A stretch of 64,000 nucleotides of DNA from Actinomycetes bacterium (GTDB taxonomy: Bacteria > Actinomycetota > Acidimicrobiia > Acidimicrobiales > Palsa-688): NCBI GenBank assembly GCA_021787365.1, contig JAJYMB010000130.1, positions 62,001 through 126,000 of the forward strand. Reading direction: 5' to 3'. Each line of letters opens with the position of its first letter. The first letter of the stretch is position 1. The position numbers were made by a program, and so were the translations under genes. The notes beneath the pieces are model-generated. The model was given only the letters and a program-made list of their open reading frames with translations. It was not told the origin of the DNA and made no database searches. This document shows positions 57,344 to 61,656 of the stretch, piece after piece.

Positions 57344-57645
57344 CGCTTGGCCCGCCGCTCCCGCGCCACCGAGGCCGCCAAGAGCAGGACTACCAGAGCC
57401 GGGAACCCGCCGACGGCGACGGCGTTCAGCGAAGACGCCTTCACCAGCAAAGCGACGATCCCGATGGCCACGAGCGCGCCCACAAACAGCTCGGGCGTGT
57501 CTCCTACCAGGAAGTCCCACCAGAAGGCACCGAAGGACCTGAGCCAGCGCTGGACTAGCGGGCGCTCGGGACCGGCGCCGGCGCCGGCCTCGGCACCGGC
57601 CTCGGCGCCGGCCTCGGCACCGGCCTCGACGTCCTCAGGCGGCAC
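57337..57645 (-). CDS. Small membrane protein with a Glu-Ala-Gly-Ala repeat
   Basis: A 102-residue protein. Residues 8-25 are repeats of EAGA encoded by a 12-bp unit (57585-57628); then FGAFWWDFLVGDTPELFVGALVAIGIVALLV and FPALVVLLLAASVA form membrane segments. Its GTG start overlaps the end of the upstream permease-like gene by 11 bp, so they are probably made together. Function unknown; an accessory subunit of that membrane protein is plausible. Confidence 0.65.
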   Translation of the reverse strand: MPPEDVEAGAEAGAEAGAEAGAGAGPERPLVQRWLRSFGAFWWDFLVGDTPELFVGALVAIGIVALLVKASSLNAVAVGGFPALVVLLLAASVARERRAKRH

Positions 57646-58652: not shown

Positions 58653-59735
58653 GTGGCGTACGGGCTCGACATACGGCCCCAGGGTGATCTGGATTTCGTC
58701 GCCCTCGGAGCTTTGAACCACCGCTTGGACCCGGGGGTGGTGCCCTTCCGGAAGGCGGCCAGGTGTGACATCTACGCAAGCGGCGCGGAGTTCAACGTCG
58801 CCGCCAACCTGGCGGACTGCTTCGGGCTTCGGGCGGCCATCGTGAGCGCCATGGTCGACTACCCGATCGGGGACCTGATTGCGGAGGGCGTGCGTGCCAA
58901 GGGCGTGTCCGCCTTCTACAAGCACTTCGAGCACAACGGGGTCAACGGGCCCAACATGGCGACCGTGTACAGCGACCGCGGGTACGGCGCCCGGCCGCCG
59001 GTCGTGTTTTACAACCGGGCCAACGAGGCCGCTGCAGAACTCGGGCCGGGGGACTTCAACTGGGGCCAGATTTTCGGCGGGGGGGTGAGGTGGTTCCACA
59101 GCGGCGGCGTTTTCGCCTCGCTTTCGGAGAGCACCGGCGAGCTCATAATCGAGGCGATGAAGGCGGCAAAGGCCGCCGGGGCGGTCACCTCCTTCGACCT
59201 CAACTACCGAGCCAAGCTCTGGGGCGTGTGGGGCGGGCAGGACAAGGCCGTGCCGGCCTACTCGCGGATCGTCGAGCAAGTCGACGTCTTGGTGGGCAAC
59301 GAGGAGGACCTGCAAAAGGGGCTCGGCATCAAAGGCCCTGACGTCGAGAGGGCGTCTGCGCTCGACCCGAGCACGTTCGTGGCGATGATAGACGAGGTCC
59401 GCAAGAGCTTCCCGCAGGTGAAAGTCGTCGCGACCACGTTGCGGGAAGTGCTGTCCACCAACAGGCACCGCTGGGGCGCGGTCGCGAGCATCGGTGGCAA
59501 GGTGTACTCGGCCCCGACCTGCGACCTGGACGTGCTCGACCGGGTGGGCGGCGGGGACGGCTTTGCCGCCGGCCTTTTCTACGGGCTGCTGGCCGGTGAG
59601 GACCCCGAGGAGGCCGTAAGGCTGGGCTGGGCTCACGGGGCGCTGCTCACCACGTTCCCCGGGGACCAGACGATGGCGACGCTCCAACAGGTGCTCGACT
59701 TCGCACGAGGCGGCTCGGCGCGCGTCCAGCGCTGA
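58653..59735 (+). CDS. PfkB-family sugar kinase
   Basis: A 360-residue ribokinase-fold kinase. The N-terminal substrate part shows GAEFNVAANLADCFGLRAAIV, the centre SFDLNYRAKLW, and the C-terminal ATP/anion-hole motif DRVGGGDGFAAGLFYGLL (usually DTxGAGD; here GGGD). 2-keto-3-deoxygluconate kinase is the closest type I recognise, which would fit sugar-acid breakdown, but the substrate is not fixed by sequence. Confidence 0.85.
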   Translation: MAYGLDIRPQGDLDFVALGALNHRLDPGVVPFRKAARCDIYASGAEFNVAANLADCFGLRAAIVSAMVDYPIGDLIAEGVRAKGVSAFYKHFEHNGVNGPNMATVYSDRGYGARPPVVFYNRANEAAAELGPGDFNWGQIFGGGVRWFHSGGVFASLSESTGELIIEAMKAAKAAGAVTSFDLNYRAKLWGVWGGQDKAVPAYSRIVEQVDVLVGNEEDLQKGLGIKGPDVERASALDPSTFVAMIDEVRKSFPQVKVVATTLREVLSTNRHRWGAVASIGGKVYSAPTCDLDVLDRVGGGDGFAAGLFYGLLAGEDPEEAVRLGWAHGALLTTFPGDQTMATLQQVLDFARGGSARVQR

Positions 59736-59738
59736 CGC

Positions 59739-59940
59739 TTGCAACAATTTCCCGCCCGACGGCACCGCTACCGGCCGGGTCGGGTGGGAGTTGACAACGT
59801 CTTCTAAACGTCGGGCGGGCTTTAATTGCTCCCACGGTAGTTGATCCCGGCCCGACGATCTGGCGGCCCAGCCGAGTTGTAAGTAAATCCCGCCTGACGG
59901 CCCTTTCGCGCGGGGCGTCGGGCGGAGTTGCAATACATTG
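59739..59940. repeat. Six alternating copies of a TTGyAA...CCCGCCCGACG motif forming three hairpins
   Basis: Degenerate 20-26-bp copies lie at 59739-59762 (+), 59777-59797 (-), 59809-59828 (-), 59837-59858 (+), 59874-59900 (+) and 59916-59940 (-). Each ends in a form of CCCGCCCGACG preceded by TTGCAA-like bases. Neighbouring copies face each other and can pair into three GC-rich stems. The block fills most of the 283-bp spacer after the PfkB gene. No reading frame is seen inside. REP/BIME-like sequence or a structured RNA are possible. Confidence 0.7.
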
Positions 59941-60004
59941 GGTGCTGGCGAATGGGGTCAAGCGGCGAGCGGCGGGGTGGCCGCACCTGAAGGCCCGGGT
60001 CGCG

Positions 60005-60018: not shown

Positions 60019-61656
60019 ATGTTGCCTCGGAACTGGCACAACAGGACAAGAAAGGGCTCTCTGGTCGCCGGCGTCTTGGCCGGGGCGCTCGTGCTGGCGG
60101 CGTGCGGCGGAGGAGGCTCCGCGGCACCGACGACCAGCAGGCCCGCGACCGCCGGGCCGACGACCAAGGCGGGCCACGAGAGCACCGCCGGCAAGACCTC
60201 CCCACCCGCGACCAACGGCCCCGCCACCTTCATGGGGCCCGACGGGGTCGAAGCGCGCTGGGTCATACAGGAGAACAAGAAGCCAGGGACGACCGCTTGG
60301 CACCTTTCCGGGGATGGGCCGGCTACTATCCACGGGTTTGCCAACCTGACCGCGGCCTCCGCCGGCCAGAAGGTGTCGCTCTATATAACTACGACCGCCG
60401 CCCGTTACCATGTGAGCGCCTACCGGATCGGCTATTACGGGGGGACGGGCGGGCGCCTCGTGTGGAGATCTCCTGAGGAAAAAGGGGTCGTCCAGCCGGC
60501 GTGCACGTTGACGGCGTCCACTCGCATGGTGGCTTGCGACAATTGGGCACCCTCCATAACGTTCACGATCGGCCCGGAGTTCGTGCAGGGGGACTACCTC
60601 TTCAAGCTCGTCGCCGACCCCGGCCAACAGAGCTACATACCCTTGACGGTCTGGGACCCGACGAGCCACGCGACCTACATCATCCAAAACAGCGTGCTCA
60701 CGTGGCAGGGCTGGAACACCTGGGGCGGCTACGACATGTACGGCGGCGCGCCGCCGGGCCAGACCCCGCAGTTCGCCCAACGGGCGTATGTGGAGAGCTT
60801 CGACCGCCCCTACGCCAACGGCAATGGCGCTGCGGACTTCATGGCGCTCGAGTACCCGCTCGTCTATTGGGCCGAGCAGCACGGCCTCGACGTCACCTAC
60901 TGGACCGACGTCACTTTCGCTGAGCACCCCAACCTGTTGCTCAACCACAAGGCGCTCATCACGCTCGGCCACGACGAGACCTGGACGATGGCCGAACGCA
61001 ACGGCGTCCTCGAGGCCCGGGCCGCGGGAGTGAACATCGTTTTCCTCGGGGCCTCCCCGGTGCTGCGCCACGCTCGCCTGCAGCCGAGCCCCCTCGGGCC
61101 GGACCGGGAAGAAGTCGACTACCGGGACCCCCAGCTCGACCCCATATACGCCAAGGACCCGCTCGCTGCAACGGGCAACACCTGGGCCCAGCCACCCGAC
61201 AACGCGCCGCCCAGTGAGATTGTCGGCGACACCTACATGGGCTACGGCCTCGACGACCCGATGGTGGTCACCGACGCCAGCGCGTGGCCCTGGGCGGGCA
61301 CCGGTGTCACTGACGGCACCCAGTTGAAAGGCGTCCTCGCCGGCGACTACGACGCCTACGACCCCAACTCGATCGACCCCGCGGGAGTCGAGATCCTCGC
61401 CCATTCACCGGTCCACGCCCAGGTGCAGGACGCCCCCTACTCGGACATGGTTTACTACACCTGGCCGCACGGCGGCGGCGTGCTGGCGACGGGCACTATC
61501 GGCTGGATCCCGGCGCTCGAATCCTGCCGGGGCTCCCTGCCCGCCTGCCCGGCACCGGTGCTCCAGGCGGCGACGGGCAACATTTTCCACCTCTTCGGCG
61601 AGGGGCCGGCCAGCAAGACCCACCCCTCGGTAGCCAACTGGCGCCAGTACTACTAA
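60019..61656 (+). CDS. Lipoprotein with an N,N-dimethylformamidase large-subunit-like domain
   Basis: A 545-residue exported lipoprotein (signal GVLAGALVLAACGGGG; lipobox LAAC) with a Thr/Pro-rich spacer to about residue 65. The rest resembles the large (beta) subunit of N,N-dimethylformamidase: YHVSAYRIGYYGGTGGRLVW, NSVLTWQGWNTWGGYDMYGG, VTYWTDV, ITLGHDETWTMAERNGVLEA and GTIGWIPAL. No small-subunit gene is adjacent, and export is unlike the known soluble enzyme, so the substrate may differ. Confidence 0.78.
   Translation: MLPRNWHNRTRKGSLVAGVLAGALVLAACGGGGSAAPTTSRPATAGPTTKAGHESTAGKTSPPATNGPATFMGPDGVEARWVIQENKKPGTTAWHLSGDGPATIHGFANLTAASAGQKVSLYITTTAARYHVSAYRIGYYGGTGGRLVWRSPEEKGVVQPACTLTASTRMVACDNWAPSITFTIGPEFVQGDYLFKLVADPGQQSYIPLTVWDPTSHATYIIQNSVLTWQGWNTWGGYDMYGGAPPGQTPQFAQRAYVESFDRPYANGNGAADFMALEYPLVYWAEQHGLDVTYWTDVTFAEHPNLLLNHKALITLGHDETWTMAERNGVLEARAAGVNIVFLGASPVLRHARLQPSPLGPDREEVDYRDPQLDPIYAKDPLAATGNTWAQPPDNAPPSEIVGDTYMGYGLDDPMVVTDASAWPWAGTGVTDGTQLKGVLAGDYDAYDPNSIDPAGVEILAHSPVHAQVQDAPYSDMVYYTWPHGGGVLATGTIGWIPALESCRGSLPACPAPVLQAATGNIFHLFGEGPASKTHPSVANWRQYY

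Follow-up and report, generated by a model that had tools for sequence, protein, structure and literature searches.

The 204-bp segment that lies between a PfkB-like kinase gene and a lipoprotein-like gene in the window (the whole stretch of 64,000 nucleotides analysed here) is probably one copy of a non-coding BIME/MITE-like DNA repeat, dispersed and specific to its genus, with six inverted copies of one motif at fixed spacing, which would be recognised by a protein and spread by passenger mobility. Searches of open-licence literature returned no description of this repeat, and the element is apparently uncatalogued, being ordinary in kind and unusual in its fixed six-site geometry.

The original prediction described six copies of a 20-26-bp motif in the order + - - + + -, the facing pairs of which form three successive palindromes with GC stems, and all of these are present in the sequence, the motif measuring ~20-24 bp (Table 1). 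Single motif units are not palindromic; one palindrome consists of two motif copies. The 11-bp core of the motif is by itself unremarkable in this GC-rich window (135 two-mismatch matches versus 143 expected by shuffling), and hence the finding rests on the clustering of six copies within 200 bp and on their facing order. The + strand of the element folds with an energy of -104.6 kcal/mol (z = -4.3), which none of 200 shuffles equals, and the minus strand also folds better than its shuffles (z = -2.9). The recurrence of the element, described below, is stronger evidence for its reality than the fold. Examination of the reading frames revealed stops in every frame for most copies and no frame that is open throughout, and a coding origin was therefore rejected. 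Elsewhere in the window, a small ORF predicted on the opposite strand (minus) contains a short run of Ala-Gly-Ala-Glu repeats (57540-57640).

Table 1. Positions of the element, its motif copies and the flanking genes in the window
Feature	Position	Strand	Pairing or context	Basis
Whole element, 204 bp	59738-59941	+ (model's orientation)		homology edges of non-orthologous copies near the ends; near-constant length of full-length copies
Motif copy M1	59739-59762	+		sequence; aligned motif column block in alignment A4
Motif copy M2	59775-59798	-	with M1, palindrome A; stem 59750-59760 / 59779-59789	sequence and fold
Motif copy M3	59809-59829	-		sequence and fold
Motif copy M4	59837-59857	+	with M3, palindrome B; 59809-59857	sequence and fold
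Motif copy M5	59876-59899	+		sequence
Motif copy M6	59916-59933	-	with M5, palindrome C; stem about 59891-59900 / 59915-59924	sequence and fold
Upstream gene, PfkB-like kinase	58653-59735	+	stop codon TGA at 59733-59735, element directly after	
Downstream lipoprotein-like gene	60020-61656	+	ATG near 60020	

BLAST searches with a 207-bp block recovered one further copy, a diverged one, from the window's own genome (E 2e-8); across the genus they gave weaker matches and, in a sister genome, an 89% copy at the corresponding junction. With a covariance model built from four copies, many more came to light in each of the three genomes that make up the genus sample, all of them drafts (G000, the genome of the window, 91% complete; G001, 89%; G002, 61%), and a second model, built from 25 two-palindrome stretches, found several loci outside its training alignment. 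At E <= 1e-4 the second model gives ~12 distinct loci for G000 and 22 and 11 for G001 and G002, respectively, counts that derive from a search in which E-values are rough and training sequences match by construction. In the rest of the family, 27 of 29 other genomes gave no match to the covariance model; G028 gave one weak match, and G023, from another genus, has a single strong copy (L120, contig C104) with a flank that matches contig C632 of G002, the G023 contig being probably misbinned. No matches were found in 197 other genomes of the order, searched under stricter filters, and given this near-absence from the other family and order genomes the element family is essentially genus-specific. 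When inspected, the BLAST matches in other genera (E 1e-2 to 1e-4) resemble coding sequence, matches of a 17-mer from M5 in other bacteria look like chance, being scattered over unrelated phyla, and a search of plasmids returned no copies.

The full form, found in G000 and G002, is ~204 bp long and comprises palindromes A (+ -), B (- +) and C (+ -). Shortened A-B forms also occur, and the copies in G001 are mainly of this type (~120 bp), with the internal spacing nearly unchanged. At one locus in G001 (L109, contig C157, 1640-1860) palindrome B occurs alone, in three head-to-tail copies with a 62-bp period. Non-orthologous copies are ~45-60% identical, yet mostly show 0-2 gap columns in 204, a figure obtained from copies collected by a fixed-length model, which favours gap-free matches. 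The A/T half of the motif is lineage-specific across most arms and copies, taking the form GTAANCAATC in G001 and GTTGTTAA/TAAATCC forms in G000 and G002; GTAANCAATC-GCCC has 23 matches in G001 (control 1) versus 2 each in G000 and G002. Such a lineage-wide variant suggests that the motif turns over together with a shared recogniser.

With genes called by a home-made codon model, not one of the 28 copies examined falls well within a predicted gene; a single copy, L097, overlaps a weakly predicted gene at that gene's edge. The non-orthologous loci with both neighbours predicted (17 in number) comprise 6 convergent, 10 tandem and 1 divergent arrangement, and the copies are biased towards gene ends. 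The neighbours look like ordinary genes, between which the copies stand singly.

All three orthologous junctions that were compared differ among the genomes in the presence or absence of the element. The pfkB junction carries it in G000 and G002; in G001 the spacer after the pfkB ortholog is only a few tens of bp long and holds no element. The junction between genes that we take, from their sequences, to be pheT and argC is occupied in G000 and G002 and short in G001, and the one downstream of a presumed aroC is occupied in G001 and empty of the element in G000. Furthermore, two copies in G001 (L085 and L091) share 96.6% identity across 205 bp, their surroundings being unrelated, and, judged by their sequences, are a recent duplicate. 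Together the presence/absence pattern and this near-identical pair in unrelated contexts indicate that the element moves or is copied. No target-site duplication was seen (longest shared flank k-mer 5.0 versus 4.98 in mismatched flanks), and neither a transposase nor a motif-flanked gene was found as a mobiliser. Three local features accompany these loci. The duplicated unit of L085 and L091 (about 1435-1640) reaches ~65 bp beyond the model on the upstream side and apparently includes a further, degenerate copy of the motif. In G001, GC-rich tandem-like repeats (GCCGGCCCGCTGGGTGC...) occupy about 2720-2930 of L154 (contig C65), immediately ahead of the copy that follows aroC; at the corresponding place in G000 (L155, contig C141), on the reverse strand, sits what we presume to be a small toxin-antitoxin pair of a ribbon-helix-helix and a PIN-domain protein.

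Comparison of four orthologous pairs reveals that the element is substituted at the rate of the intergenic flanks (11.7% versus 12.6%). Indels between orthologues number 2 in the element versus 15 in the flanks (p = 0.02), and the half of the columns that is conserved across the family changes between orthologues at 7.9% versus 15% for the rest (p = 0.002), with a base-stratified odds ratio for change in conserved columns of 0.49. Given that the overall rate equals that of the flanks, constraint does not extend beyond the motif columns; the motifs and their spacing appear, from these comparisons, to be under constraint in place.

We propose that the paired motifs are bound, as DNA, by a protein of the host or of a transposon, and that this recognition might both spread the element and constrain its copies. 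The element could spread as a passenger of some transposase or recombinase and would survive mainly downstream of genes, where promoters stay undisturbed; a mild side effect on transcription or on mRNA 3' ends is possible. A less probable alternative, which we regard as unlikely, is that a dedicated multimeric protein, either a chromosome-organising factor or an undescribed recombinase, docks on the six sites as one composite platform, its recognition motif having co-evolved across all copies in each lineage.

It is improbable that the copies represent a true REP/BIME family moved by a RAYT, a tyrosine HUH transposase acting on single-stranded hairpins, that has been lost or lies in an unassembled part of the genome. 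The original prediction of a REP/BIME cluster was right in kind: the element is a palindromic repeat with alternating orientation that is dispersed between genes and recurs in relatives, and its alternating inverted units, intergenic sites, bias to gene ends and length variants (A-B-C, A-B and the tandem B of G001 contig C157) resemble BIMEs (PMC3733652). It was not right in membership. The REP-associated transposase that it led one to expect did not appear, PF01797 (Y1 transposase) being without a match in the drafts of G000 and G001 (91% and 89% complete), and the copies number tens at most. Two PF01797 matches in G002, which we take to be IS200-type TnpA genes, have no element within about 1.5 kb and were for that reason rejected as its source. 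Moreover, the units are not hairpins singly and there is no constant GTAG/CGTC tag; the motif heads vary among copies (TGTAAGG, GTTGTTAA, GTAGTTAA, GTAATCAATC), and CGTC sits inside the stem, often replaced by CGTT.

Derivation as a classical MITE from a DDE insertion sequence, in which the outer motif copies would be terminal inverted repeats (TGTAAGG...CTTACA) and those between them additional sites for the transposase, is likewise improbable. While the outer ends are inverted copies, the size of 204 bp is suitable and both ends are common to many copies, target duplication is lacking, palindrome B occurs alone in tandem, and the motif patterns are found almost only inside elements, so that no insertion sequence with such ends was seen in these draft genomes.

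The remaining alternative, that each copy gives rise to a functional multi-hairpin RNA (a 3' UTR stabiliser or a small RNA), is very unlikely. The strong fold of the + strand, the co-directional orientation of 17 of 25 upstream neighbours and a slight pairing excess in a wider alignment, one that mixes lineages (8 of 500 shuffles reach it), are in its favour; however, orientation to the neighbours is mixed, and the two strands fold about equally, with energies that favour neither consistently. In the three-palindrome alignment there is no covariation above shuffles (86.1% of cells paired versus 85.8%). Single stem changes between orthologues keep or break the pair about equally often (8 versus 5), and a search of Rfam gave no match for the element. 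An apparent G-U excess in palindrome A, considered as a sign of a strand-specific RNA, is absent from B and C. The motif columns appear constrained and the pairing does not, a pattern that points to recognition of the DNA sequence rather than to a structured RNA, and the multi-hairpin RNA offered by the original prediction thus finds little support.

Among known systems, the GTTGGGC/GCCCAAC cores of the element fit the R'/R'' consensus of attC sites. Unlike in integron attC sites, the paired cores span only about 31 bp, with several palindromes per element and no cassette arrangement, and attC sites were set aside on this geometry. The element resembles the bacterial MITEs (ERIC, NEMIS, RUP and others), which are non-coding, dispersed sequences of 70-300 bp with inverted ends and strong secondary structure (PMC3733652); it differs from them in having six copies of one site rather than one pair of ends, and in that no target duplication or parent insertion sequence was detected. 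Repeats of the GTAG and CGTC REP super-families are similarly intergenic, mostly between convergent or co-directional genes, with inverted units that gather in dimers and larger clusters (PMC3733652). However, a single REP unit, 20-40 bp long, already forms a hairpin and carries an unpaired tag, and copies are usually far more numerous (PMC3733652), whereas here a palindrome takes two motif copies and the spacing of the array is fixed. That paper does not mention Actinobacteria. With the element, a high-GC lineage gains a repeat of strict organisation that is apparently uncatalogued. It makes a tractable case, having six sites in fixed geometry, a motif specific to each lineage, junctions of clear presence or absence, and no obvious mobilising enzyme. 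The nearest precedent is provided by the CGTC REPs, which also occur without a known dedicated transposase (PMC3733652), and the element bears on how such repeats spread.
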